Assembly: GCF_002019635.1 (NCBI RefSeq)
Contig: NZ_KV917371.1
Location: 558,001 to 622,000, forward strand
Direction: 5' to 3'
Source of the DNA: Metabacillus halosaccharovorans
GTDB taxonomy: Bacteria; Bacillota; Bacilli; Bacillales; Bacillaceae
DNA: 64,000 nt
Both the position numbers and the translations under genes were made by a program. Each line of letters starts with the position of its first letter. Position 1 is the stretch's first letter. Below are positions 31,554 through 59,582 of the stretch, one piece after another. Under the pieces are notes generated by a model. That model did no database searches. It was not told the origin of the DNA and saw nothing but the letters and a program-made list of their open reading frames with translations.

Positions 31554-33263
31554 TTAAATTTTAAATCGTCCAACTTGTTTGAATAACGTTTCAGCTGATT
31601 TGGCTAATCGATCAGAACTTGTAGCTACTTGCTCCATTGAGGTACTTGTTTGTTGTACCGATGCAGCCGTTTGCTCAATCCCTGCTGCTGCTCCTTCCGA
31701 AACTGTTGCAATTTCTTCAATCGAATTATTGATTTCATCACTATTGTCCTCTATCGTGCTAAGATTTCCTGAGATAAATTGTACTCCTTTAGTCATTTCC
31801 AATAAGGCCTGATTAATTTTCTCGAATGTCTCGCCAGTAGATTTAATTTGATTTGTTCCCTTTTCCACTTCCCTATAACCGGACTGTAAAGAGTCTGTCA
31901 TAATAGTAGATTCAGATTGAATATTCCTTACAATGAGAGTAATATCCTCCACAGACAAGGAAACTTGTTCTGCAAGTCTTCTCACTTCATTAGCAACTAC
32001 TGAGAATCCCTTACCATGTTCTCCTGCTCTTGCTGCTTCTATTGCGGCATTTAGGGCAAGTAGGTTCGTTTGGTCAGCGATATCCTTAATAACTCCAACA
32101 AGTTTGGTAATTTCTTCTGACTGCTTTTCTAGTGTTTTCACTTTTTCTACTGCATCTTTTACAATAGAATGGATCATGCCCATTTGCTCAATAGAAGCGA
32201 ACATTAATTTACTTCCCGTGTCTGTCAATTCAATTACATGTTGAGAAGATTGAAAAACTTCTTTCCCACTTTGGCTTGCTTCGTTTATCTTACCGGAAAA
32301 AACCTTCATTGCAGACGCTAAATCGCTTGTGGTATTAGCTTGTCCTTCCGATTCTGAAGACAGTACCTGCATAGTTAAGGCAATTTGACTGCTTCCCTCT
32401 TTTACTTCAAATGCAGATTGTGTAAGTTCTTCACTTTGTGCTGATACGGATTCTGAAACGAATTGAATCTCTTGTAACAATCCCTTAATGTTCTCACTCA
32501 TTTGGTTAGTTGCAGCAAATAAACGTCCAATTTCATCGAGGGATTTCGTCTCAATTGGCTTTTGACTTAGATCTCCTTTAGCAAGTAACCCCACTCGATT
32601 TGTAACGGTTTGAATAGGCTTTGAAATAATAGATGACATGAAAAAAGCGATAATAATACCTATAAAAGCAACAACAACAGAAACCGTCAAGCCCATCTTA
32701 ATGTTTGTTTCATTATTAGTAAGTAAGTTGTTCCCAGCCCCTTGGATCATTTTTTCTCGATTATTAATTTGATATCGATAACCATTCATGATTTCATCAG
32801 CAGCTACCCGAACTGCTCCCTCTAAATTCTCCTCCGCTAGCTCTTCTTTTCCACTTTTATAAACAGCAAACACTTCTTCATTAACAAGTTGTTCCCAATC
32901 TAAGCTTTTTGCTACTAATTGTTCAAAATCCTCTGAGTCATTGATTTTTAATGCTGTTTCCTCCACTGCTCGACTTTTTTCTGTATAAATATTAAATTGA
33001 TCAATATACTCTTGTTTTCCTGTTAAAATATATCCTCTTACTAGCCCAATTCTTTCTGACATGTTTTGGCCTAATGTTTCATCAGCAATTAACAAAGGGA
33101 TTTGGTGGTTAATGATATTCTTGGCATCGAAATTAATAGATTTAGATGCCATAAAATTATAGGCTCCAAAAGCAATCGTTAACAAAATGACAAATGAGAA
33201 TCCAATTAGTATCTTTGCTCTTATTGACTTTAACTTAAATCTGTAAAAAGGATTCTTCTTCAT
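31554..33263 (-). CDS. Methyl-accepting chemotaxis protein
   Basis: A 569-residue chemoreceptor. Helix 1 (about 15-33), a four-helix-bundle sensor (35-185), helix 2 (about 188-212), HAMP (212-265) and the signalling domain (270-569) are visible. The signalling tip reads [41 protein letters not shown]. It guides flagellar movement through CheA/CheW. It sits next to the sugar importer, but nothing in the sequence ties its ligand to those sugars. Confidence 0.93.
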
Positions 33264-33340: not shown

Positions 33341-34516
33341 TTAAGCTCTTTGTTTACGTGTCATTACGTCGAAGATTACTGCAAGCGCAAGTACTCCACC
33401 ACGAATCATATATTGAGGTGCGATTCCAACACCTAATAAATTCATACCGTTTGTTAAAGTCGCCATAACGATTGCACCAATAACTGCTCCTGTTACTTTA
33501 CCAACACCACCCGCAGCGGAAACCCCACCAACGAATGCTGCGGCAATCGCATCAAGCTCAAATAATGTACCAGCTGTTGTAGTAGCTGATTGTAAACGTG
33601 CTGTGAATAAAATACCAGATAAAGCCGAAAGCATACCCATTGAACCAAATACTAAAAACGTAATTTTACTTACATTAATACCAGTAAGATGTGCCGCTTC
33701 TGGGTTACTACCTACTGAATAAATATGACGGCCAATTACTGTTTTTGTTGTAATAAAGTGATAGACAAGAACAACCACGAGAATAATAATAACAGTCCAT
33801 GAGAAACCATTATATCCAGCTAGTAGCCAAGTAATATAAGCCATTATTCCTGAAACAAAAAGTAATTGCAAAATAAAAATAGGTTTTGATACAACATCGA
33901 ATTCGTATTTGATTTTATTTTTACGATTTGTTATCGCACTATAGATGTAAAATAAAATTCCAACTAAACCTAGAAGTAGTGATAGTAAATGAAAGCCTCC
34001 CACTTCAGCAATTGAAGGGATATATCCATTACCAATTGCATTAAACGCATCATTATCAACGATAATTGTACCTGATTTTTCTGTTGCTAATAAAATCGCA
34101 CCACGATAAATTAACCAACCAGCTAAGGTAGCAACGAACGCTGGAATTCCAACTTTAGCTACTAAGAAACCTGTAACCGAACCAGCACAAATACCTAGAA
34201 TTAGAATGATTGGGATGACGATAAAGACTGGCATTCCAAACTGCATTAACAAAATAGCGGCTAATGCTCCAAGAAAGCCGGCTAAAAATCCAATCGATAA
34301 GTCAATATGTCGAATAACGATAACGAGCATAACACCGACAGCTAGAACAGCAATATATCCTGCTGAATCTAGTAAATTACTAATATTTCGAGAGGACATG
34401 AAAAGTCCATTTGTAAGTATTTGAAACGTGATCATAATGACAATTAATGCGATATACATCCCATAATCACGAATATTATGCTTTACTAATCCCTTTAGCT
34501 CATTAATATATTTCAT
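33341..34516 (-). CDS. Sugar ABC transporter permease (GguB/XylH-like)
   Basis: A 391-residue permease of the branched-chain/ribose type with about ten helices. Family landmarks are HIDLSIGFLAGFLGA, KVGIPAFVATLAGWLIYRG, GRHIYSVGSNPEAAHLTGI and LDAIAAAFVGGVSAAGGVGK. AGGAGG precedes the ATG. It is the third gene of the chvE-type operon and starts 12 bp after the ATPase stop. It should form the membrane channel for a monosaccharide such as xylose, arabinose or galactose. Confidence 0.92.
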   Translation of the reverse strand: MKYINELKGLVKHNIRDYGMYIALIVIMITFQILTNGLFMSSRNISNLLDSAGYIAVLAVGVMLVIVIRHIDLSIGFLAGFLGALAAILLMQFGMPVFIVIPIILILGICAGSVTGFLVAKVGIPAFVATLAGWLIYRGAILLATEKSGTIIVDNDAFNAIGNGYIPSIAEVGGFHLLSLLLGLVGILFYIYSAITNRKNKIKYEFDVVSKPIFILQLLFVSGIMAYITWLLAGYNGFSWTVIIILVVVLVYHFITTKTVIGRHIYSVGSNPEAAHLTGINVSKITFLVFGSMGMLSALSGILFTARLQSATTTAGTLFELDAIAAAFVGGVSAAGGVGKVTGAVIGAIVMATLTNGMNLLGVGIAPQYMIRGGVLALAVIFDVMTRKQRA

Positions 34517-34528
34517 ATCTTTTGCCTC

Positions 34529-36049
34529 CTATTGCGTCGCAAGTTCCATGATCTTTTCTTGGCTGGCTTCCTCTGAAGATAATTCACCTTTAATTTCACC
34601 TTCAGCCATTACATAAACGCGATCGCTCATACCAAGGACTTCACCAAGCTCTGATGAAATCATAATGATACTCATACCCTTATTAATCAGTTCATTCATA
34701 ACTGTATAAATTTCAAATTTAGCACCAACATCAATTCCTCGTGTTGGCTCATCTAAGATTAGTAATTTTGGACCTACAAATAACCATTTTCCTAATGACA
34801 CCTTCTGTTGGTTACCACCACTTAAGTTACCAACTAGCTGTAGTAAAGAAGGTGTTTTAATCCCTAGGGATTCTCTATATTCTTGTGCAATCACATTTTC
34901 TTCGTTTTCATTAACGACTCCATTTGAGGAGATCTCTTTCAAGTTTCCGATTGAAATGTTGCTTTTGATATCCTGTTGTAAAAACAGTCCGTCACCTTTT
35001 CGATCTTCGGTAACATAAGCAATTCCTGCTTTTATAGCTTCACTTGGATGTTTAAATTTTCCAGGTTGCCCTTCTATAAATAAATCACCTTGAATTTTAT
35101 ATTTTGCTGCATTTCCAAAAATACTTAATGCAAGTTCTGTTCTCCCTGAGCCCATTAGTCCAGCAATACCAACGATTTCCCCTTGCTTTACATGCATATT
35201 CACATTGTTGGCAACGTTTCGTCCAAGCTTTGAATCATAGGCCGTCCAGTTCGATAATTCAAGAACCTTTTCACCTAGAACTTTCTTTGGCCGTTTTGGA
35301 TAAATATCTTCAATTTCACGCCCAACCATGTTTTTGATAATGGCTTCTTCGGTAATTTCTCCTTTTGATCTTTCTAACGTACAGATGGTTTGCCCATCAC
35401 GTAAGACAGTTGCCTTATCCGCGATCGCGGTAACTTCTTTCAACTTGTGAGAAATCATGATGGATGTGATTCCTTGTTTTTTTAATTCTAGTAATAATTG
35501 CAGAAGGTTTTCACTATCATCTTCATTTAGTGCTGCTGTTGGTTCATCTAGAATCAATAATTTAACTTTCTTACTTAACGCTTTCGCAATTTCCACTAAT
35601 TGCTGTTTCCCTACACCTAAATCTTTAATTAAGGTTTCCGGATTTACTTTCAAGCCTACTTTATCTAACATTTTCTTTGCTTCAACGATGGCTTTATTCC
35701 AATTTAAAACGCCACCTTTTTGAATCTCATTACCAGCAAATATATTTTCGTAAACAGAAAGATCAGGGAATAGCGCCAATTCTTGATAAATAATAACAAT
35801 TCCCACATCTACGCTATCACTTATTTTGTTAAACTTTTGGACTTCATTATTAAAAACGATATCTCCAGAGTAGGTTCCATATGGATAAACACCACTAAGC
35901 ACCTTCATAAGAGTAGACTTACCAGCTCCATTTTCTCCTACTAAAAAGTGGATTTCTCCTCTTTCCACTTTAAAATTGACATTAGAGAGCGCCTTCACAC
36001 CTGTAAATTCTTTTGATATCTGGTTCATCTCTAAAATATAATCGCTCAT
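34529..36049 (-). CDS. Sugar ABC transporter ATPase, two ABC domains (GguA/XylG-like)
   Basis: A 506-residue protein with two fused ATPase domains. The first has Walker A GENGAGKST, signature-like GVGKQQLVEIAKAL and Walker B LLILDEPTAAL. The second has the degenerate Walker A GLMGSGRTEL, signature LSGGNQQKVSLGKWL and Walker B LLILDEPTRGIDVG. This is normal for monosaccharide importers. AAGGAGG precedes the ATG. It lies between the binding protein and permease genes. Confidence 0.93.
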   Translation of the reverse strand: MSDYILEMNQISKEFTGVKALSNVNFKVERGEIHFLVGENGAGKSTLMKVLSGVYPYGTYSGDIVFNNEVQKFNKISDSVDVGIVIIYQELALFPDLSVYENIFAGNEIQKGGVLNWNKAIVEAKKMLDKVGLKVNPETLIKDLGVGKQQLVEIAKALSKKVKLLILDEPTAALNEDDSENLLQLLLELKKQGITSIMISHKLKEVTAIADKATVLRDGQTICTLERSKGEITEEAIIKNMVGREIEDIYPKRPKKVLGEKVLELSNWTAYDSKLGRNVANNVNMHVKQGEIVGIAGLMGSGRTELALSIFGNAAKYKIQGDLFIEGQPGKFKHPSEAIKAGIAYVTEDRKGDGLFLQQDIKSNISIGNLKEISSNGVVNENEENVIAQEYRESLGIKTPSLLQLVGNLSGGNQQKVSLGKWLFVGPKLLILDEPTRGIDVGAKFEIYTVMNELINKGMSIIMISSELGEVLGMSDRVYVMAEGEIKGELSSEEASQEKIMELATQ

Positions 36050-36133: not shown

Positions 36134-37252
36134 TTATTCTAGTCCAGTGAATTCACTAGCATCATAGTAACTTGAATCAATTAATTCCGCTTTCACGTTT
36201 TCTTTGTTAACGACGATAACGTCTGTTTGTTTTGCATTTACATCAACACTACCGTTGTTGTAAGTACCAGTCGTTTCTGGAGTTTTTCCATCAAGAATGT
36301 CTACAGCCATACCCATAGCATCTTCAACAAGTGTACGAACATCTTTAAACACCGTCATAGATTGTTTTTCATCAATGATGTATTGGATTGAGGCTTTTTC
36401 AGCATCCTGACCAGTTATGACATAGCTAGATACAGCACTGTCTGATGCAAATACGTCAGCGATTGAACGAGAAGTACCATCGTTTGGAGCTAGAACTGCT
36501 ACGTCACCTTTTAAGTCAGCACCTGCAGCTGTTAAGTTTGTTTGCGCTTTATTTTTAGCTTCGTTTGGATCCCAGTTTGTTGTAACCTGACCTAAAATTT
36601 TCCCTAATTCATCACGACTAAGAGTTGCTTTATCTTTTAAAGCTTCTGCTTCACTAGAGTTAGCGATTACAAAAGTACCATCAGCAATTTTGGGTTGAAG
36701 AACTTTCCAAGCACCTTCGAAGAATAGGAATGCATTGTTATCAGACGCTGCACCAGCAAATAAGTAAAGCGGAACACCAGTACCTTCTACATTGTCAACT
36801 AAATATTGACCCTGTGCTTCACCTACAGCAATACTGTCAAATGTTACATAATAGTCAACTGCATCTGTATCAGTAATTAAACGATCATAAGAAATAACTT
36901 TTATTCCTTCTTTTTTTGCTGCTTCTACTGCTGAACCAGCTGCTGGTCCATCATGAGGTGCGATGATTAGAACATCGATTCCTTTACTAATTAACGTTTC
37001 TACGTTTTCTTTCTCTTTTGCAGAAGAACCTTGGCTAAACAAGATTTCAGTTGTATATTCAGAGTCTGCTAGAGCTGCTTTAAATCTTTCTTCATCTTGA
37101 ACCCATCTTGGCTCATCCTTTGTTGGTAATACGATCCCAACACTTACTTCACTACTTCCACCGCCTCCAGTGCTATCACTGCTACAAGCTGCTACGAAAG
37201 TAAATAAAATACCTACTAATAAGGCCGAAACTAACTTAAAACCTTTTTTCAT
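36134..37252 (-). CDS. chvE: Monosaccharide-binding lipoprotein, ChvE type
   Basis: A 372-residue binding protein with signal peptide and lipobox (FVAACSS). It follows ChvE closely: PTKDEPRW, VISYDRLI, SDNNAFLFFEGA, TNWDPNEA, GQDAEKASIQ and TVFKDVRTLVED. ChvE-type proteins bind several aldoses (glucose, galactose, arabinose, xylose). It leads the ABC operon. Its promoter carries AraC-type direct repeats and cre-like boxes. The upstream neighbours are a sugar sensor operon, which probably switches it on. Confidence 0.92.
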   Translation of the reverse strand: MKKGFKLVSALLVGILFTFVAACSSDSTGGGGSSEVSVGIVLPTKDEPRWVQDEERFKAALADSEYTTEILFSQGSSAKEKENVETLISKGIDVLIIAPHDGPAAGSAVEAAKKEGIKVISYDRLITDTDAVDYYVTFDSIAVGEAQGQYLVDNVEGTGVPLYLFAGAASDNNAFLFFEGAWKVLQPKIADGTFVIANSSEAEALKDKATLSRDELGKILGQVTTNWDPNEAKNKAQTNLTAAGADLKGDVAVLAPNDGTSRSIADVFASDSAVSSYVITGQDAEKASIQYIIDEKQSMTVFKDVRTLVEDAMGMAVDILDGKTPETTGTYNNGSVDVNAKQTDVIVVNKENVKAELIDSSYYDASEFTGLE

Positions 37253-37276: not shown

Positions 37277-37332
37277 TGATAGTGCTTACATACAAAAGAT
37301 ACCATTCGTAATTAATCATGAAAACACTTACT
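37277..37332 (-). promoter_or_regulatory. chvE operon promoter with two cre-like boxes
   Basis: The minus strand shows weak -35 TTTTCA (37324-37319), 17 bp, and -10 TATCTT (37301-37296). TGTAAGCACTATCA (37290-37277, minus strand, 13 of 14 to cre) lies six bases past the -10. TGAAAACACTTACT (37319-37332, plus strand) overlaps the -35. Confidence 0.5.
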
Positions 37333-37336
37333 TATA

Positions 37337-37368
37337 GTACTTTTTTAGTATCCATCTGTACTTTTTTA
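37337..37368 (-). repeat. Direct repeats, probable YesN-type activator site
   Basis: GTACTTTTTTA occurs at 37337-37347 and again at 37358-37368, exactly 21 bp apart (two helical turns). The pair lies 12 bp upstream of the putative chvE -35. This is the geometry of an AraC-family activator, and the neighbouring YesN-type regulator is the candidate. Confidence 0.6.
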
Positions 37369-37591
37369 ACATGACAAATAGGTAGATTATCACCTCAAAC
37401 CAAAGAGGCAAGCACTTTAGTCATCCTTGATCACCATCTAACTCTTAAAAAGAGCTGGTAATCACTTTATCTTCGATTTTAGATAGTTCATCTTCGACTA
37501 TTAAAATTTTTCTACGATTATTGCCTTTCAATCAACATTTCTACAAATTACTACATAATTCGCCCCCAATGTCTATATACTTAACGTACAA
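37369..37591. other. Intergenic region upstream of the chvE promoter
   Basis: Apart from the promoter elements to its left and the terminator to its right I see no gene or structured element here. Confidence 0.4.
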
Positions 37592-37654: not shown

Positions 37655-38728
37655 TTACTTATCCTTATTCAAGTAAACATCTTCTTTCATATGAAAACCA
37701 TCCGCAATGATTGTTTCATCAACATTTGAATGATTAACAACAGTGGGGGATAAAAGAATTGAAGGTACCTCCATTTTACCGTTGTTTACTTTTACGATCT
37801 CTCCAAGCTCCCCAATCTCCTCATCCTTTGCTAGCTTTATTGCAAGTTCTGCAGCTAGCTCGGTTAACTCATTAATCGGTTTATAAATGGTCATCGCCTG
37901 TTTTCCCTCAATGATACGTTGAATGGCTGCTAGATCTGCATCTTGGCCAGCAACTGGAACTTTCCCTGCAAGTCCTTGCTCCTCCAGCGCTTCTATTACT
38001 GCACCAGCCGTTGCATCATTCGCCGCAATTACTGCATCAATATCCTGGTGATTAGCATTTAAGGCAATTTCCATATTTTCTTTTGCATTTGATGGCACCC
38101 AGTCTTTTGTCCACTGATCAAAAACAACTGTTATATCTCCCTTATCAATAAGAGGCTGGAGCACTTCAAATACCCCTTTTTTAAACATATGTGCATTATT
38201 ATCCGTTTCTGCTCCACCAATATAGACATACTTTCCTTTTGGAACAAGCTTTGTAATTGCCTGTGCTTGAAGTACTCCAACCCGCTCATTATCATAGGAA
38301 ACATACATTTCAACTTCTGCATTTTTCACCAGGCGATCATATGATAATACTTTAATACCAGCAGAGTGAGCTTTTTCAACAATAGCTGCAGTCGATTCAG
38401 CGTTATGTGGAACAATGACAAGCAAATCAATTCCATTGCTAATCATCGTTTCCGCTTGCCAAATTTGCAAGGCATCATCACCATGTGAAGCCATCACCTC
38501 CACCTCTGCCCCTAATGCTTCAACCGATTGTTTGAAATGATCTCTATCTTTCACCCACCGTTCCTCCGTTAATGTATCCATAGCAAATCCAATTTTGATT
38601 GGCTCATCTAAAACCTGTTTATCATTTGAGTTATAGCTGCTCGTCTTTGATTGTGCTATTGAGTCGCTGTTTCGTATCTGCGGTTCTTCACAACCAAGGA
38701 GAAATATGAATAATACGAGCATCAACAA
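37655..38728 (-). CDS. XylF-like sugar-binding lipoprotein of the sensor operon
   Basis: About 357 residues, with a lipobox in FIFLLGC and a sugar-binding fold (Peripla_BP_4). It shares ChvE/XylF landmarks: VKVLSYDRLV-like segment, ETDNNAHMFKKGVFEVLQP, GQDADLAAIQRIIEGKQAMTIYKP. It closes a sensor operon instead of a transporter operon, like XylFII of Clostridium beijerinckii, which hands the sugar signal to a LytS kinase. The start is odd: only TTG 38728 and ATG 38722 with a poor ribosome site. The frame stays open back to the response regulator stop codon and is in phase with it. Confidence 0.85.
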   Translation of the reverse strand: MLMLVLFIFLLGCEEPQIRNSDSIAQSKTSSYNSNDKQVLDEPIKIGFAMDTLTEERWVKDRDHFKQSVEALGAEVEVMASHGDDALQIWQAETMISNGIDLLVIVPHNAESTAAIVEKAHSAGIKVLSYDRLVKNAEVEMYVSYDNERVGVLQAQAITKLVPKGKYVYIGGAETDNNAHMFKKGVFEVLQPLIDKGDITVVFDQWTKDWVPSNAKENMEIALNANHQDIDAVIAANDATAGAVIEALEEQGLAGKVPVAGQDADLAAIQRIIEGKQAMTIYKPINELTELAAELAIKLAKDEEIGELGEIVKVNNGKMEVPSILLSPTVVNHSNVDETIIADGFHMKEDVYLNKDK

Positions 38729-38785
38729 GCCTAAGTTAGTATTAGTAAATAACTGTCTGATTTTAATCGCTCCAATACAATTGTA

Positions 38786-40327
38786 TTATTCTACTTTTGA
38801 TAACAACTTTTTACGGTACTCTTTTGGAGAAGAATGACAGATTTTTTTGAATACCTTGCTAAAATAATTCGGATCATGGTAACCAACTTCGAATGTGATT
38901 TCTTTTAAGCTTTTTAATGGATCTCTCATTAGTCTCTTCGCTTTCTCAATGCGACACTCTGTTAAAAAATTTATATAATTAATTCCTAGCTGCTCTTTAA
39001 ATATTTTACTAATATATATAGGACTCAAGCCTACTTGTTGACCAACCGCTTCCAATGAGATATCCTCATGTGCATGGTCAATGATGTATTGTTTCATTTG
39101 TTGAATGGTATCCACTTCCATGTTAGCAAGATGCTTCTCATATGACTCTTGCATTCGATCTAACAGGTGCCGTGCTTCGGCTCGCAGTTGTCTATAATCG
39201 GTCGATTTGAAGGAGTACAACGGTACATCTGATTCTACTCCCATCTCGCTTAATATACGGGTGGCAATCCAAAACAGCTCCATTACTCTTTGTTGCGTTT
39301 GCTTCACCATTGTTCCTTCTTGTTCTAAACGATCGATAATATGTGCAATTCGTTGAAAAATCTCATCCCATTCTCCATTACGGATATGATCAAAATATTG
39401 CTGTTCACTTTGTTTTGTTGTTTCCTCATCAATTCCTGAAACAAGCGCGGGCAACTCTTCATAAAATTGGAATTTTCGTGGAATTGATGTATCTCTCGTC
39501 GCAATTAGTGATTCTTGATATGACTGTCTAATTTGACTCAAAGATTTGTATACGGTTCCAATTCCAACAAACCAGCCAGTAGCTTCACCGGCTGTGTTTA
39601 AGGACAAAATCTCTTTAGCCAACATGATAGCTTGAGAACGGAACGATTGATCTTGCTTTCGAAAGACAATGATAGGAAGTTGCCTGCCATATAACGCACC
39701 TACCAAACCACTACCTGTTTGATTCAACTTTTCTCTAACCTTGGAATAAGAGGCTTCAAAACCATCAGGCACAATGAGGCTAATCACAAATTTTTCTTCC
39801 GTGGCCTGTATGTCTAACATTTCTAGTAGCTTTTCCAAATGAACTTCATGAACATGGTCAAATAATAGTTGTGTTACAACATCGGTCTCAAATAAGGACA
39901 TGGCTATTTGCAAAGTATTTTCCTGCTGCTTCATAGCCTCAACTCTTTGTTGTTCTCCCTTTATCTGGTTAAGCACTTTCTCAACAGTTTCCACGATCTC
40001 CTTAATTCGACTTGGTTTTACCAAATAATCGACAACACCCAGCCTCATGGCTTCCTTAGCGTAATCAAAAGTTGCGTATGCAGTTACTAATATAAATTTC
40101 ATACGAGGATAATAGGACTTCATTTTTTCAATTACTTCAATACCAGTCATACCTGGCATTTGAATATCCATGAACACTAAGTCTGGTTGAAAATCTGAGG
40201 CTATCTCTATTGCCAGCCTCCCATTTTTCGCTTGTTGAATGACAATATCCGTAAAGTTCTTCTTAAGAATCATTTCTAACCCATCACGTTCGACCTCTTC
40301 ATCATCTACAATAAGTATGTTAGTCAT
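38786..40327 (-). CDS. YesN-type response regulator (receiver plus AraC)
   Basis: A 513-residue regulator. The receiver (1-120) has phospho-acceptor D54 in DLVFMDIQMPGMTG and the KPSRIKEI end. A middle region (about 130-395) resembles the GGDEF-like linker of YesN proteins. The AraC helix-turn-helix (about 410-510) shows ISLEAVGQQVGLSPIYISKIFK and VGYHDPNYFSKVFKK. It overlaps the kinase gene by eight bases. Direct repeats at the chvE promoter are its likely target. Confidence 0.92.
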   Translation of the reverse strand: MTNILIVDDEEVERDGLEMILKKNFTDIVIQQAKNGRLAIEIASDFQPDLVFMDIQMPGMTGIEVIEKMKSYYPRMKFILVTAYATFDYAKEAMRLGVVDYLVKPSRIKEIVETVEKVLNQIKGEQQRVEAMKQQENTLQIAMSLFETDVVTQLLFDHVHEVHLEKLLEMLDIQATEEKFVISLIVPDGFEASYSKVREKLNQTGSGLVGALYGRQLPIIVFRKQDQSFRSQAIMLAKEILSLNTAGEATGWFVGIGTVYKSLSQIRQSYQESLIATRDTSIPRKFQFYEELPALVSGIDEETTKQSEQQYFDHIRNGEWDEIFQRIAHIIDRLEQEGTMVKQTQQRVMELFWIATRILSEMGVESDVPLYSFKSTDYRQLRAEARHLLDRMQESYEKHLANMEVDTIQQMKQYIIDHAHEDISLEAVGQQVGLSPIYISKIFKEQLGINYINFLTECRIEKAKRLMRDPLKSLKEITFEVGYHDPNYFSKVFKKICHSSPKEYRKKLLSKVE

Positions 40328-41768
40328 TTGTCTCGAGTCTCCTTTCCTTCAAAAGCTTTATCATCACTTTCGTACCACTTCCTTGGCTACTTTCAATCTT
40401 CATCACATCTTCCATCCCATTGAAAAGTCGAAGACGCTTCATCACATTACTTAAACCAATACCTGAGGAGTGTCCATTTGCCGTGTTTACCTTCTCTTCA
40501 TATATTTCTTGAATTTTTTCTTCTGTCATACCAGGACCATTGTCTTCCACTTCTATCATGACTAGGTCTCCCTCATCTTTGATTCGAAACCAAATAATAC
40601 CACCTTCTTCATGTGGCTCAACCGCATATATGACGGCATTTTCCACGAGCGGCTGCAAGGTTAGGCCAGGGATCGGGATAGGAAGACAAGATTCATCTAT
40701 CTCCATTAGAAAGGTAAGTCTGTCTGTGTATCTTGTTTTTTGAATATCAATATATTGTTTCATTACATTTACTTCATCATTAAGTGTCATAGGCTTATCT
40801 AAATGTTTTAGGTTATAGCGTAATAAGCCTGCGATGCTAACTAGCAAATCACTCGTTTCTTCTGATCCTTCCATATAGGCTTTTTTAGAAAGTGTATTTA
40901 GCGTGTTAAATAAAAAATGTGGATTTATTTGACTCTGTAGATTACGCAATTGACTTTCCTTTAATAGAAGCCTATTTTGCTGTAATTCATTTTCCAGCTG
41001 TGCTTGATGATGTATTTCTGATATTAATTTATTTATATTCACACGCATTCGATCAAACATCTTTGCCAGAAATGCAATTTCATCACTCGAATTCACTTCA
41101 ACTTTTAAATCAAACCGCCCTTTGGAAAGCTCATTTGCTGCATGTGTCAATTTTTCAACTGGTTTCGTAATCCGTTGAGAAAACCAATAAGTAAAGAGTA
41201 AGAGACCTACCGTAATTAAAAGGAGCAACCAAATTCCAAGCTGCTTTAGCTCTTCTGACTGACTAATCATATCTCGATAAAACATATCATATGTTTGAAG
41301 CTCTAAATCTATTAATGTCAAAGCCATTTCCGAGATATAGTTAGAAATATGAGTCGCTTCATTAAATGCTGTCATTGAGTACTCTGTTTCATCCTCAGAC
41401 TGAAAAGAAATTGATAAATCAACTGACTCTACAAAACTATCAACTAAGTTCACATAATTTGTTAATGCTAATTCATTCTCCACATTTTTATATGTAGCTA
41501 CTTCATTTTTCATCTTTTGAATGTCTTTCTTATTCTGAGTAATTGCTTTAAAGTTATCTTCAGATGGAAGGAGTAAATAGTTATTTAATGCTGTTACTGT
41601 ATTTTCACTTTTTATCGTTATTTCATTCAATATTAAGTATCGTTCAAGGATGTTGTTATACTGATCTAACATTTTTTGATTATAGTAAGTAAGCGAAAAC
41701 CAAGTTGCTGCCATTATCAAGAGAGCCACTAACACAAGGCCCCAAATTTTCTTCTGTATACTGTTCAT
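40320..41768 (-). CDS. Sensor histidine kinase, YesM/LytS type
   Basis: A 482-residue membrane kinase. Two helices (about 8-27 and 178-197) enclose a 150-residue extracellular, largely helical sensor; HAMP follows (198-250). Phospho-acceptor H284 is in QINPHFLFNTLN. ATP-binding motifs are LVENAVIYAVEPHEEGG, DNGPGM and GIGLSNVMKRL. It overlaps the binding-protein gene upstream by four bases and the regulator downstream by eight, so the parts are made together. The ligand is probably presented by one or both binding proteins. Confidence 0.92.
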   Translation of the reverse strand: MNSIQKKIWGLVLVALLIMAATWFSLTYYNQKMLDQYNNILERYLILNEITIKSENTVTALNNYLLLPSEDNFKAITQNKKDIQKMKNEVATYKNVENELALTNYVNLVDSFVESVDLSISFQSEDETEYSMTAFNEATHISNYISEMALTLIDLELQTYDMFYRDMISQSEELKQLGIWLLLLITVGLLLFTYWFSQRITKPVEKLTHAANELSKGRFDLKVEVNSSDEIAFLAKMFDRMRVNINKLISEIHHQAQLENELQQNRLLLKESQLRNLQSQINPHFLFNTLNTLSKKAYMEGSEETSDLLVSIAGLLRYNLKHLDKPMTLNDEVNVMKQYIDIQKTRYTDRLTFLMEIDESCLPIPIPGLTLQPLVENAVIYAVEPHEEGGIIWFRIKDEGDLVMIEVEDNGPGMTEEKIQEIYEEKVNTANGHSSGIGLSNVMKRLRLFNGMEDVMKIESSQGSGTKVMIKLLKERRLETND

Positions 41769-42742
41769 TCGTCGTCCACCTGTTTCACCATTTGAATGTC
41801 AGTAAGATAGCCATCTAAATTAAGTGGTAATACCTCTCTGTTCAGCCAGTTCATCATTAATTCCACACTAAGCTCCCCCATCATTGATGGAGACTGCTCG
41901 ATCATTCCATCTATTTTTCCTTCCTCCAATAAAGATAATGAACTAGGGTCATCGTCAAAAGAATAGATATAAAACGCTTCAACATTCGAGCGTCTATCAA
42001 TTTCCTCTACCAAATCATCTGCAAATTTTGCATTTAGTGTAATAAAAGCATCAACGTCAGGTATCCGGTTTAATAAATCCTTTGTGGTGGCAATAACCTG
42101 CTCTCGTGTATCTTCCGTCTCTGCTTCAATCAGCTTAATTTCTGGATAATTGGAGAGGTATTCTTGAATTCCTTTTAATCTCTGTGCTTGATAGAATTCC
42201 TGTGTACGGTCAATCACTAAAACAACCTCGCCAGATTCTCCCATATCCTCTACCAATTGTTCCGCAATCATTCTACCAGCCAAAATCTGATCGGACCCTA
42301 CATACGTCCTACGAAGGCTTTCTGCCATCGGAACATCATTGGCCACCGTGATAACTGGCACTCCATATGAAGAAGCTTTTACTTTTGTCAGCTCCTTAAA
42401 TTCCTCTGTATCCACTCCCTGAACGATAATACCATCTACTTTTGAATAAATCGCTATTTCTATTTGTTTTAAGAAATCCTCTTGATTGTTGCCATAACTT
42501 CCCAATATCTCAAGCCTTGCACCAGCCTGTTCTGCCTGTTGCTTCGCTCCTGCACTAACTGAATCCCAAAATGGAGTCTCCAACTCATGAGTAATCAAGA
42601 CGATTCTCTTGTCAGTAAGCTTTTCCTTTAACTCCTCTGGCAACTTCCAATTTGTATTAAATACTTTCACAGCAGAATCTAATGTAAAATAAAAAAGAAT
42701 AATACATGTGATAACGCTTACAAACTTAACAATCTTTCCCAT
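41765..42742 (-). CDS. RbsB-like binding protein with membrane anchor (sensor)
   Basis: A 325-residue sugar-binding-fold protein (Peripla_BP_4), with the phrases ITHELETPFWDSVSAGAKQ, KVDGIIVQGVD and SLLEEGKIDGMIEQSP. It has an uncleaved-looking N-terminal helix (about 6-24) and no lipobox, so it is probably anchored next to the kinase. AAAGGAG precedes the ATG. It begins the operon binding protein, kinase, regulator, second binding protein. It is not followed by any permease, so a sensing role is more likely than transport. Confidence 0.88.
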   Translation of the reverse strand: MGKIVKFVSVITCIILFYFTLDSAVKVFNTNWKLPEELKEKLTDKRIVLITHELETPFWDSVSAGAKQQAEQAGARLEILGSYGNNQEDFLKQIEIAIYSKVDGIIVQGVDTEEFKELTKVKASSYGVPVITVANDVPMAESLRRTYVGSDQILAGRMIAEQLVEDMGESGEVVLVIDRTQEFYQAQRLKGIQEYLSNYPEIKLIEAETEDTREQVIATTKDLLNRIPDVDAFITLNAKFADDLVEEIDRRSNVEAFYIYSFDDDPSSLSLLEEGKIDGMIEQSPSMMGELSVELMMNWLNREVLPLNLDGYLTDIQMVKQVDDE

Positions 42743-55965: not shown

Positions 55966-56952
55966 TTAAGCAGCACTATCTCCACGTAAGCGATCTAGTA
56001 ATACAGCTGCAATAATAACTCCCCCTTTTACAACTAATTGCCAATAATAATTAACATCCATTAGTGTAAGTCCGTTACTAATCACTCCCATAATTAAAAC
56101 CCCAATAATAGTTCCTTGAATCTTACCTCTTCCACCTACTAAACTTGTCCCTCCGAGAATAACAGCTGCAATCGCATCAAGCTCATACATTTGTCCAGCA
56201 GTCGGCTGACCAGAATATAATCTTCCAGCTAAGACAACCCCACCTAAGCCTGCTAATAATCCGCTAATTGAATAAACATTAATTAAAGATTTTTCTACTT
56301 TTATACCTGTTAATCGAGCTGCCTCTTCATTGCCACCAATTGCATAAATATGACGACCAAACATTGTATACTTCAGTATAAAAAACATCACAACATAAAC
56401 TAAAAGCATAATATAGATTGGAGTTGGGATACCTATAATTGAGCCTCCTCCAATAAACTTAAACGTCTCATTTTCCAAAACAATTGGGTATCCACCACTA
56501 ATAACATAAGCCAGACCACGTACATATGTGAAACTTCCAAGTGTTACAATGAAAGCTGGCAGTTTTGTCTTAGCTGTAAAAAATCCATTAATTAATCCTA
56601 CTGCATAACCTACTGCTGCTCCCGATAACATGGCAATATAAGGGTTAACACCTGCAGAGGAAACCATAACTGAAATAACTCCAGATAAAGCCACTGTCGA
56701 CCCTACCGATAAGTCAATACCGCCTGTTAAAATAACAATTGTCATCCCAGCAGCTAAAATAGCGATAATAGATACTTGTTTTAATACATTTAATAGATTT
56801 GCAGTATCTAAAAAGTTTGGAGCTGTGAAAGAAAGCACGATACATAATAATAATAAAATCATAATCATTCCTAAACGATTCCATAATGCATGAATAATAT
56901 TCCCTATGTTTAGACCTTGAGATTGATTAGCTGTTTGAACATTTGCTTTCAT
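55966..56952 (-). CDS. Sugar ABC transporter permease (RbsC-like)
   Basis: A 328-residue permease of the ribose type with about ten helices: VILTGGIDLSVGSTVALSGV, GLINGFFTAKTKLPAFIVTLGSF, GRHIYAIGGNEEAARLTGI and LDAIAAVILGGTSLVGGRGK. I chose ATG 56952 behind GGGGAG; it starts four bases after the ATPase stop. A longer frame to 57021 would overlap the ATPase. It is the last gene of the operon binding protein, ATPase, permease. Confidence 0.92.
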   Translation of the reverse strand: MKANVQTANQSQGLNIGNIIHALWNRLGMIMILLLLCIVLSFTAPNFLDTANLLNVLKQVSIIAILAAGMTIVILTGGIDLSVGSTVALSGVISVMVSSAGVNPYIAMLSGAAVGYAVGLINGFFTAKTKLPAFIVTLGSFTYVRGLAYVISGGYPIVLENETFKFIGGGSIIGIPTPIYIMLLVYVVMFFILKYTMFGRHIYAIGGNEEAARLTGIKVEKSLINVYSISGLLAGLGGVVLAGRLYSGQPTAGQMYELDAIAAVILGGTSLVGGRGKIQGTIIGVLIMGVISNGLTLMDVNYYWQLVVKGGVIIAAVLLDRLRGDSAA

Positions 56953-56956
56953 TTTG

Positions 56957-58507
56957 TTACTCCCCTTTTGTAGCAAAGTACATGATTTTTTCTTGTGTAG
57001 CTTCTTTTCTTGATAGTTCACCAGTTAATCTTCCTTCACTCATCACAAGAATTCTATCACTTATTCCTAGCACCTCTGGTAATTCTGAAGAAATCATTAA
57101 AACGGCTAAACCTTCGTCAGCTAACTTAGAAATAATCTTATGAATCTCTGTCTTAGCACCAATATCAACTCCTCTAGTTGGTTCATCTAGTAGGAGTACT
57201 TTTGGTGAAATAGACAGCCACCGTGCAATTACTGCTTTTTGCTGATTTCCTCCACTCAGATTGGAAACAGGCTGTTCAGGAGAAGCAATTTTAATACTTA
57301 ATTCCTTGATATAACGATCTGCAGTAGCATTAACGTCTTTCCAACGAACTACTCCAGATTTTGAGTGCTTCTTAAGTTCTGCCATTAAGATATTCTCTTT
57401 TACAGACATAGATAAAAATAACCCTTGTTCTTTTCTACTTTCTGGTACATGTGCAATACCATTGGATATTGCATCAATTGGTGAGTTGATTTTCACTAAT
57501 TTATCATCTACATAGATTTCTCCGCTTGTTAGATTGGATGCACCGAATATGGCCCTCACTAATTCTGTTCTTCCTGCACCTACAAGTCCTGCAAGACCAA
57601 CAATTTCACCTGGGTAAACCTTAAATGACACATTTTTAACTACCTTTTTATCAGATATATTTCTGAGTTCTAATACGGGTATATCCTTCTTTCGATAAGG
57701 ATTAAATGCCTTGGTACGATTAAATAAATCTTTAAGGTCACGTCCAACCATAAGTTTGACAAGATGATCTGGATCAGTTTCTTCTATAGGACCACTCGCG
57801 ATCCATTCACCATCTCGTAATACTGTATATCGGTTTGATATCTTAAAAATTTCTTCCATTCTGTGAGAGATATAGACAATGGCTACCCCTTGTTTTTTTA
57901 AATCATGAATAATGTCAAATAGTTTTATAATTTCTTTAACTGTTAATGAAGCTGTCGGTTCATCCATAATAAGAACCTCTGCCTTAAAGGATAGGGCACG
58001 AGCAATTTCAACCATCTGTTGCTGGGCAACACTAAGAGTTGATACTAATTGGCGTGGGTTAAGACTGGATCCCATTGAATCCAGAACCCTTTGAGCACGT
58101 TCATGAACTTCATCCCACTTTACCATTCCTAAACTATTTCTAGGAAACTTTGTACCCATTAAAATATTTTCACTGATCGTTAGGTTCGGAGAAAGATTTA
58201 ATTCCTGATGAATGACACTTATTCCTTTATTTCTCGCATCGATAGGATCCTTCCACAAGACAGGTTGGCCTTTATAATAGATTTCCCCTCCATTTTGATC
58301 CGGTTGATGAATCCCTGCTAAAATCTTCATGAATGTAGATTTTCCGGCACCATTCTCTCCCATTAGTGCATGGACTTCGCCTGGATATAACTCAATTTTC
58401 ACATTCTTTAATACAGTGACTCTTGAGAAGGTTTTACTTATTCCCTGCATATTCAAAACAGGGTGTTTTAGGTTAGATCGCTGCTTTACTTCTTCTTTGA
58501 CAACCAT
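56957..58507 (-). CDS. Sugar ABC transporter ATPase, two ABC domains (RbsA-like)
   Basis: A 516-residue fused double ATPase. The first half has Walker A GENGAGKST, signature-like LSVAQQQMVEIARAL and Walker B LIMDEPTASL. The second has GLVGAGRTELV, signature LSGGNQQKAVIARWL and LLLDEPTRGVDIG. It powers the permease downstream. The ATG at 58507 is about 12 bases from GAAGGG. Its sugar may be ribose or another monosaccharide. Confidence 0.93.
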   Translation of the reverse strand: MVVKEEVKQRSNLKHPVLNMQGISKTFSRVTVLKNVKIELYPGEVHALMGENGAGKSTFMKILAGIHQPDQNGGEIYYKGQPVLWKDPIDARNKGISVIHQELNLSPNLTISENILMGTKFPRNSLGMVKWDEVHERAQRVLDSMGSSLNPRQLVSTLSVAQQQMVEIARALSFKAEVLIMDEPTASLTVKEIIKLFDIIHDLKKQGVAIVYISHRMEEIFKISNRYTVLRDGEWIASGPIEETDPDHLVKLMVGRDLKDLFNRTKAFNPYRKKDIPVLELRNISDKKVVKNVSFKVYPGEIVGLAGLVGAGRTELVRAIFGASNLTSGEIYVDDKLVKINSPIDAISNGIAHVPESRKEQGLFLSMSVKENILMAELKKHSKSGVVRWKDVNATADRYIKELSIKIASPEQPVSNLSGGNQQKAVIARWLSISPKVLLLDEPTRGVDIGAKTEIHKIISKLADEGLAVLMISSELPEVLGISDRILVMSEGRLTGELSRKEATQEKIMYFATKGE

Positions 58508-58586
58508 AGCTTATATCATCCCTTCTATATTTGAAGAAGACTGATGAAGGAATAAAATCCTTATCAGCCTATATAAGTTTGGAGGT

Positions 58587-59582
58587 TTACCATCCTTTGT
58601 AAGAATCTAAAGTCTCTTGAGTTACTAGCTCAACTGGAACTTTGATTAAATCTTCTACTTCTTCTCCATTTTTCACTTTCATACCAATTTCTGCTGCTTT
58701 TTTCACCATTTCACTAGGTGATTGTGCTGAGGTTGCATAAATAGAACTGTCTTCTTTTGCCATTGCTTCTGTTGCTTCAGGGGCTCCATCTACACCTACA
58801 ATGAAGAATTCATCCTTGCGTCCTGCTTGTTCTTGAGCAATTTCTACCCCGATTGCTTCTGGATCGTTAATAGCAAATACGGCATTAATTGTTCCAGATG
58901 GATTAGCTTGTAAGATGCCCTCCATAACCGTTAATGCTTTTTCACGACTTCCTTCACCATTTTGTTTTGCTACCACTTTAATATCAGATCCTTTGATTGC
59001 GTCCTCAAATCCCTTAATACGGTCTGCTACAGCAGAAACAGGAGGTCCATCGATAATAGCAATATTGCCCTTTCCACCTAATTGTTCGATTACATACTCA
59101 CCAGCTAGTTGACCTGCCTGATAGTTATCTGAAGTAACGGTTGCATCCACACCTCCATCTGCATTTACATCAACTGCAATAACAGGAATTCCCGCTTCTT
59201 TTGCCTGCAGAACAGCTGCAGCTATACCTTTTGTATCAACGGCATTAAGTAAAATGACATCTACCTTTTGGGTAATAAAGTTTTCGATTTGTGATGTTTG
59301 CTTCGCCAAGTCATATTCTGCACTTTCAACAATAACTTCTGCTCCCAACTCTTTCCCTGCTTCCTCTGCACCTTTTCCCATCGCAACAAAGAAAGGATTT
59401 GCAAGTGTACCCACTGATAAAGCTATAGTTAGTTTTTCATCCTCTTTAGATTCACTACTATCACTAGAACCACTGTTTGAGCTACCGCTGCTTGTTGATT
59501 TACTTGCTCCACTACATGCTGTCATCAAAGCTAGTATTAACATCAAAACAAATACCATGAATCTCTTTGAATTACTTTTCAT
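58587..59582 (-). CDS. Sugar-binding lipoprotein (RbsB-like)
   Basis: A 331-residue binding protein with signal peptide and lipobox (LMTACSG), then a Ser/Gly linker and the RbsB fold: LANPFFVAMGKGAEEAGKEL, VDVILLNAVDTKGIAAAVLQA, NPSGTINAVFAINDPEAIGVE, EFFIVGVDGAPEA. GGGGG precedes the ATG. It leads the second ABC operon. No regulator, kinase or catabolic gene adjoins it, so the sugar is open. A perfect cre lies upstream. Confidence 0.92.
   Translation of the reverse strand: MKSNSKRFMVFVLMLILALMTACSGASKSTSSGSSNSGSSDSSESKEDEKLTIALSVGTLANPFFVAMGKGAEEAGKELGAEVIVESAEYDLAKQTSQIENFITQKVDVILLNAVDTKGIAAAVLQAKEAGIPVIAVDVNADGGVDATVTSDNYQAGQLAGEYVIEQLGGKGNIAIIDGPPVSAVADRIKGFEDAIKGSDIKVVAKQNGEGSREKALTVMEGILQANPSGTINAVFAINDPEAIGVEIAQEQAGRKDEFFIVGVDGAPEATEAMAKEDSSIYATSAQSPSEMVKKAAEIGMKVKNGEEVEDLIKVPVELVTQETLDSYKGW

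Follow-up and report, generated by a model that had tools for sequence, protein, structure and literature searches.

A conserved P-S-T-X gene unit that looks like a four-component sugar sensor beside a ChvE-like importer in Metabacillus halosaccharovorans and its relatives

In Clostridium beijerinckii, the genes for the sugar-binding protein XylFII, the kinase LytS and the regulator YesN presumably lie in this order. In Geobacillus stearothermophilus, AraPST, located beside AraEGH, places sugar sensing next to an importer, and we know of no second binding protein in the GanP/GanS or AraPST systems. Both AraPST and AraEGH are named in PMC4194401. The four components of LevQRST of Streptococcus mutans have been tested: activity requires LevQ, and LevT has a share in determining which sugars are recognized (PMC3043104). 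For CuaDSR of Ruminiclostridium cellulolyticum, it is reported that the sensory binding protein, and not the transporter's CuaA, bound the extracellular domain of the kinase (PMC10384115), and in Parageobacillus a ChvE-like lipoprotein has been noted together with a YesM-YesN pair and another binding protein (PMC13068155). Here we analyse a stretch of 64,000 nucleotides (nt) from Metabacillus halosaccharovorans (assembly GCF_002019635.1, contig NZ_KV917371.1, positions 558,001 to 622,000), in the following referred to as the window. It contains four genes, for a XylFII-like binding protein (P), a histidine kinase (S), a response regulator (T) and a XylF-like lipoprotein (X), which look like a widely conserved four-component sugar sensor beside its importer, E-G-H.

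A sequence-only reading of this DNA had proposed an operon in the order P-S-T-X, free of a permease and closed by a terminator, and this layout was borne out, on the minus strand (Table 1). The P and S genes share 4 nt and the S and T genes 8 nt, the stretch from P to X encodes no permease, and E-G-H forms a unit of its own 3' of P-S-T-X. The expected terminator corresponds to a hairpin with a T-run that is a consensus match only: across the whole region, six terminator-like matches were found against a shuffle mean of 5.0, which is not above chance, and 37 promoter-like sites against 39.4.

To describe the conservation of this order, we refer to two partly overlapping sets of loci, whose counts are not additive. 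The kinase-selected set comprises 60 loci taken from 86 foreign kinase matches (expectation value at most 1.1e-108), namely 55 of the 78 with at least 48% identity, which represent the type of the window, and five of the eight at 41-44%, which represent a related type; other kinases at 42-44%, such as those of G179, G252 and G356, fall outside it. The P-selected set holds the best 80 of 291 named loci, from Bacillus-like genera, Planococcus, Planomicrobium, Cohnella and Paenibacillus. The order P-S-T-X is found in all 60 kinase-selected loci, with a T-X spacing of about 1 kb in L094 and L095, and in 79 of the 80 P-selected ones, including L210, where T matched as two pieces; the contig of the remaining locus, L213, stops short of the place where X would lie. 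It is therefore no accident. The nearest named relative among the matches listed is Bacillus sp. J37, whose P is 97% identical, followed by Metabacillus.

The sensor genes also travel with the importer. In 397 genomes of the order, with cut-offs of at least 48% identity for S and at least 74% for close E, S occurs in 79, X in 79 and close E in 81, and all three coincide in the same 79; these sets were compiled by eye from match lists, and XylFs at 58-63% identity (13 xylFGH-type genomes) were excluded from X by hand. Close E without S and X is seen in two genomes, of which G344 shows E-G-H together with T and G312 shows E-G-H, and eleven further genomes have an E at 66-68% identity without X. 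Three layouts can be told apart: in type A, PST is followed by xylFGH (10 loci examined); in type B, PST is followed by E-G-H without X (four loci of one family, a fifth, L136, showing E-G-H only); and type C, that of the window, combines P-S-T-X with E-G-H. Layout and distances were analysed in 50 of 56 loci (L042, L044, L045, L048, L050 and L057 were excluded for a gene missing in the stretch or for odd lengths). Of these 50 loci, which carry all seven genes, 31 have the importer upstream and 19 have it downstream; the median gaps are 16 and 24 nt between T and X, for the two layouts, and 242 nt between X and E.

A direct repeat with a period of 20-21 marks the region upstream of E, followed in most loci by a site resembling a catabolite-responsive element (cre). 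The 123 upstream stretches were dereplicated to 87. As a first, simple repeat score was weak, being reached by 84 of the 87 real but also by 20 of the 87 shuffled stretches, the claim rests on a hold-out test, in which a matrix from one half of the loci was applied to the other, with the 99% level of dinucleotide shuffles as threshold. The repeat exceeded this threshold in 43/44 and 41/43 loci, 84/87 in total, while the all-loci matrix found it in 0/81 stretches before P, 1/80 before X and 0/68 before G. Cre-like sites with at most one mismatch were present upstream of E in 70/87 real and 3/87 shuffled stretches. In the genome of M. halosaccharovorans, the exact pattern occurs once, before E, with six more matches at three mismatches (10 in the reversed control). 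G344, which keeps T, also keeps the repeat (36.7 bits), and G312, in which T was unseen, lacks it (-16.5). We infer that the promoter of the importer is where T acts. This agrees with the earlier proposal that the ChvE-type importer is the likely target, as does the presence of close E in all 79 genomes with S. A shared motif before P was considered and rejected, since the words enriched there, TCTTTGATGTCATGAC among them, look like the closing part of the H coding sequence.

On the protein level, the closest sequence matches of known structure for P are XylFII (5xsd, 5xsj, 5xss) and then GanP; by fold, GanP comes first. P is therefore the counterpart of XylFII, and X the extra part. The sequence-only reading had also drawn the comparison with XylFII and LytS, calling XylFII a XylF-type protein; this was in part wrongly assigned, as XylFII corresponds to P. 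In the structural model of P, a helix (residues 2-30) precedes a two-lobed binding protein (mean predicted local distance difference test, pLDDT, 86.2; predicted template modelling score, pTM, 0.78), so that this N-terminal helix, if it stays uncleaved, would anchor P. X has a lipobox-like LLGC by reading. A rough lipobox pattern occurs in 69 of 79 X sequences; its occurrence in 12 of 80 P sequences is probably accidental. The pocket of P differs from that of XylFII at Asp103, whose place is taken by Ala134; the Asp is absent from 56/56 P, and the 80 P-selected sequences have Ala in 76, Gly in three and Val in one. According to its title, PDB entry 5xsd is the XylFII-LytSN complex mutant D103A, and it differs from 5xsj at the aligned place. 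T56, F58, W59, Q108, A134, N135, R188, D263 and Q283 of the P pocket are each kept in at least 76 of 80 sequences. The Asp103 equivalent is missing from five of ten type A P and kept in four of four type B P.

X, by comparison, keeps a complete sugar pocket: R16, D90, R91, N137, W169, N196, D222 and K242, for which we assume the xylose-binding roles of their XylF equivalents, are invariant in 56/56 and 79/79 sequences. Its scores against the XylF profiles TIGR02634 (374.1 bits, cut-off 389.55) and PRK10355 (385.3 against 504) both stay below the cut-offs. The reading frame of X contains no further ATG, GTG or TTG upstream of the listed TTG, and an in-frame ATC at 38761 or ATT at 38767, after GGAG, would provide a basic start as in its relatives. 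In the four sequences compared, the place at which relatives start, ahead of the basic stretch, is taken after a GGAG by ATC in the window and in Bacillus sp. J37 and by ATT in two Metabacillus; the possible inner starts, TTG 38728 and ATG 38722, would give an N-terminus without basic residues.

In a tree of 75 rows, which included 38 X, nine of the ten xylFGH-type proteins, 15 transport proteins and 11 linked to chemoreceptors, and in which bootstrap support had not settled, the type C X form one clade (96/100). The XylFs beside xylGH (100/100) and the chemoreceptor-linked XylFs (98/100) both stand apart from X, and the type A rows fall in two places. A set of 25 transport-type XylFs shares 118 conserved columns; X has lost 16 of them, the chemoreceptor-linked proteins have lost 23, and 10 are gone from both. 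Likewise, N180, T183, Q205 and Q210 (E. coli numbering) are near invariant in E and variable in X (126 E and 109 X rows, duplicates included). We considered whether X might serve as donor for XylGH, which would realize the earlier note's refuting case of a binding protein that normally feeds a permease elsewhere. No xylG or xylH lies beside X, the best XylH-like permease of its own genome is 47% identical, and a XylH at 53% identity or more occurs in three of the 79 X-bearing genomes, which speaks against such a role. Neither is X debris, given that its eight pocket residues are invariant in 79/79 sequences and that S and X occupy the same 79 genomes. In our best reading, X began as a transport protein and, once captured, became a sensory co-receptor; its proposed membership in the sensor operon is supported.

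The model of S has helices at residues 2-66, 70-91, 99-124 and 128-215, with long ones outside the membrane (mean pLDDT 74.5, pTM 0.39), and by reading S has a helix at the N-terminus and another ahead of HAMP. A LytS chain was not found among the 50 fold matches listed, and when the sensor part of S was compared by profile with chemoreceptor sensors, the probability was 28.7.

Table 1. Features of the sensor operon and the adjoining importer (window coordinates)
Feature	Position	Strand	Domains or matches
P: RbsB/XylFII-like sugar-binding protein, N-terminal helix	41765-42742	minus	Peripla_BP_4
S: YesM/LytS-type histidine kinase	40320-41768	minus	HAMP, His_kinase, HATPase_c
T: YesN-type response regulator	38786-40327	minus	Response_reg and AraC-type helix-turn-helix
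X: XylF-like lipoprotein	37655-38728 from listed TTG; 38761 if ATC start	minus	Peripla_BP_4
Terminator-like hairpin and T-run after X	37621-37596	minus	consensus match only
Direct repeat TTAAAAAAGTACAG-N7-CTAAAAAAGTACTA, period 21; proposed T binding site, importer promoter	37335-37369	minus	
cre-like site, 2 mismatches	37319-37332	minus	
cre-like site, 1 mismatch	37277-37290	minus	
E: ChvE-like importer binding protein	36134-37252	minus	closest solved relative 4rxu
G: GguA-like importer ATPase	34529-36049	minus	best match NF040905, below cut-off
H: GguB-like importer permease	33341-34516	minus	best match NF040906, below cut-off

As an explanation of the whole, we favor P-S-T-X as a four-component sensor with X as co-receptor that controls E-G-H, with a probability of roughly 0.56. 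P would dock to the helical portion of S outside the membrane, in the manner of XylFII on LytS, and X would supply the complex of P and S with xylose or a similar ligand of aldopentose type, while P, with its altered pocket, would mainly couple to the kinase and tune or gate the response. S would then phosphorylate T, which would bind the direct repeat before E and turn on E-G-H, with CcpA damping the importer through the cre-like sites. The features that suggest this arrangement are read from sequence, namely the gene order, the co-occurrence, a repeat before E only, an intact pocket in X, an altered one in P and the lost XylF columns.

Several observations weigh against it. X would have to make contacts with S or P, which we infer. 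D136, two residues past the missing Asp, is present in 80/80 P, and the rest of the pocket is strongly conserved; P is not clearly ligand-blind and may bind something else rather than nothing. Since the Asp is also absent from half of the P in PST-xylFGH loci, its loss is not tied to the changed role of X. E was unseen in the flank of nine of the 80 P-selected loci, where the flanks examined reach no further than 10 kb or the end of the contig; in one species present in both sets (L050/L171), E is about 12 kb distant. X looks damaged in two of 79 genomes (G102, G105), and its separation from XylF at 58-63% identity was set by hand from context. The pairwise distances of X speak for the explanation, as they correlate with those of P, S and T at 0.85-0.88 and with those of E, G and H at 0.73, 0.81 and 0.67, but these values ignore shared ancestry and site tolerance, and partial correlations separate the modules weakly (P-X 0.24, S-X 0.29, T-X 0.15, X-E 0.13, X-G 0.21, X-H -0.07). 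The column losses in X, which fit a release from permease docking, come from alignments and are unplaced on the fold, and the hypergeometric value for the 10 doubly lost columns (4.6e-5) ignores shared ancestry and site tolerance. Finally, a descent of X from an already regulated unit is weakly based: among the 10 PST-xylFGH loci, L094 and L095 pass the repeat threshold before xylF, L096-L098 have similar words below it, and L128-L132 are far below. Among the five loci of the type B family, L136 alone passes.

A serious possibility, albeit one short of even odds, is that P and X provide two independent inputs, as the sequence-only reading had proposed. Each would bind a ligand of its own, either a sugar in both cases or a sugar in one and an anti-signal in the other, and S would integrate the two. 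This overlaps with our preferred explanation. The pocket of P differs from those of XylFII, GanP and RbsB and is nevertheless conserved, as expected for another ligand, the pocket of X is XylF-like, and a precedent exists in LevQ and LevT, both of which affect sugar selectivity (PMC3043104). However, the conserved residues of P could serve closure or contact instead of a second ligand. More speculatively, the receptor could be split, in that P is a largely sugar-blind adaptor, recognition has been handed to the captured X, and the kinase reads a sugar through a stack of two binding proteins; chemoreceptors would have captured this XylF lineage on a separate occasion. P, lacking the Asp103 equivalent, would then be a natural counterpart of the D103A mutant. 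This scenario is tentative, and we consider it rather unlikely.

We consider it improbable that X is simply a second transport binding protein for E-G-H, a constitutive scout that widens its range and has no part in signalling. Importers with two binding proteins do exist, X is lipoprotein-like, as is E, it keeps its complete pocket, and close E accompanies it in 79/79 genomes. Yet X keeps its place beside T irrespective of the side occupied by E-G-H, and the repeat is absent before X in 79/80 loci. Furthermore, two genomes keep E-G-H without X, one of which, G344, lacks P, S and X beside E-G-H-T, and the near-invariant columns of E vary in X, which is not converging on E. Very improbable, lastly, is a sensor of the XylFII kind made of P alone, with X either left behind from an ancestral xylFGH operon or acting as a passive buffer for sugar: such arrangements are represented by the type A and type B loci, but a leftover should decay, and X, damaged in just two cases, keeps its eight pocket residues in 79/79 sequences and shares all 79 genomes with S.

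The XylF family seems to have been put to another sensory use. About 38 XylF-like matches fall outside the two main types; of the 27 examined, 15 have xylG/xylH, 11 follow a chemoreceptor and one (a second XylF, L142) is unclassified. Each of the 11 classified paralogues that lack xylG/xylH comes immediately after a chemoreceptor-like gene, Pfam-checked in one case, and together they form one clade, which suggests a family of sugar chemotaxis co-receptors. The genome of M. halosaccharovorans itself has a second XylF-like lipoprotein gene 25 nt after a chemoreceptor gene (L143:7544-10373; C1, about 388 kb). In the window, a chemoreceptor gene (31554-33263, minus strand) starts 77 nt after H, and a near full-length relative of it follows H in seven of 135 loci with H (L041, L084 and L148-L152, some of the same species), so that there may be a link between importer and chemotaxis in this clade.

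The importer components match the curated profiles NF040907 (E), NF040905 (G) and NF040906 (H) best; as their scores (264.7/460, 754.4/810 and 397.2/450 bits) stay below the cut-offs, we use the label 'ChvE-like'. A fixed catabolic partner gene was sought and not found, with no recognized sugar-catabolic family among the 14 most recurrent neighbor families (738 frames, 80 loci); the commonest is an ATP-binding cassette (ABC) ATPase, in 13 loci. In one Cohnella locus (L198:15943-19797), the reading frames that follow X resemble genes of inositol catabolism, and E-G-H was unseen in the flank. Separate frames for an RbsB-like binding protein, an ATPase and a permease lie about 16 kb away in the window (55966-59582, minus strand) and by reading form a ribose-type importer.

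If our preferred explanation is true, P-S-T-X shows a route from transport protein to sensor. PST-xylFGH, PST with the importer but without X, PSTX with the importer, and XylF behind a chemoreceptor are all found in living relatives, and the steps from transport to sensing are therefore testable. Nature also offers, in P-S-T-X, a test case for whether signalling by a XylFII-type protein depends on a ligand of its own.

How does the unit relate to the systems described so far? No description of the four-gene unit was found in the open-access literature searched, subscription papers lying mostly outside the search. As in CuaDSR, a sensory binding protein is encoded beside a two-component system; CuaDSR differs in being a cellobiose system with a single sensory binding protein (PMC10384115). 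The arrangement in Parageobacillus, so far as it is described, equals the layout without X (PMC13068155). P matches GanP, and the kinase domain of S matches GanS; GanP, GanS and AraP of Geobacillus stearothermophilus are represented by PDB 6gq0, 6swk and 6sw4. GanP keeps the pocket Asp that P lacks. The unit also resembles XylFII-LytS-YesN: an RbsB-like binding protein gene directly precedes a LytS/YesM-type kinase and a YesN regulator, and the target, a likely one here, is a monosaccharide ABC importer in both. The sensor of LytS is a helical bundle, and the part of S outside the membrane is helical in the model. Differences concern the Asp103 position, occupied by Ala, Gly or Val in P; the additional X; and the likely target, which is a ChvE-GguAB-like importer rather than xylFGH. 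In LevQRST (PMC3043104), two ABC-type sugar-binding proteins likewise flank a kinase-regulator pair; the unit controls an adjoining sugar uptake operon and includes no importer of its own. The presence of two binding proteins around one two-component system, as proposed by the sequence-only reading, is confirmed here, and LevQRST provides a tested precedent. The likeness is one of layout: the same paper reports LevQ and LevT as membrane-associated, compared with a lipoprotein-like X of XylF type, and gives LevS up to five predicted membrane helices and a phosphotransferase system (PTS) as target, compared with two helices, by reading, in S. In our best reading, P-S-T-X would work like XylFII-LytS and is laid out like LevQRST.

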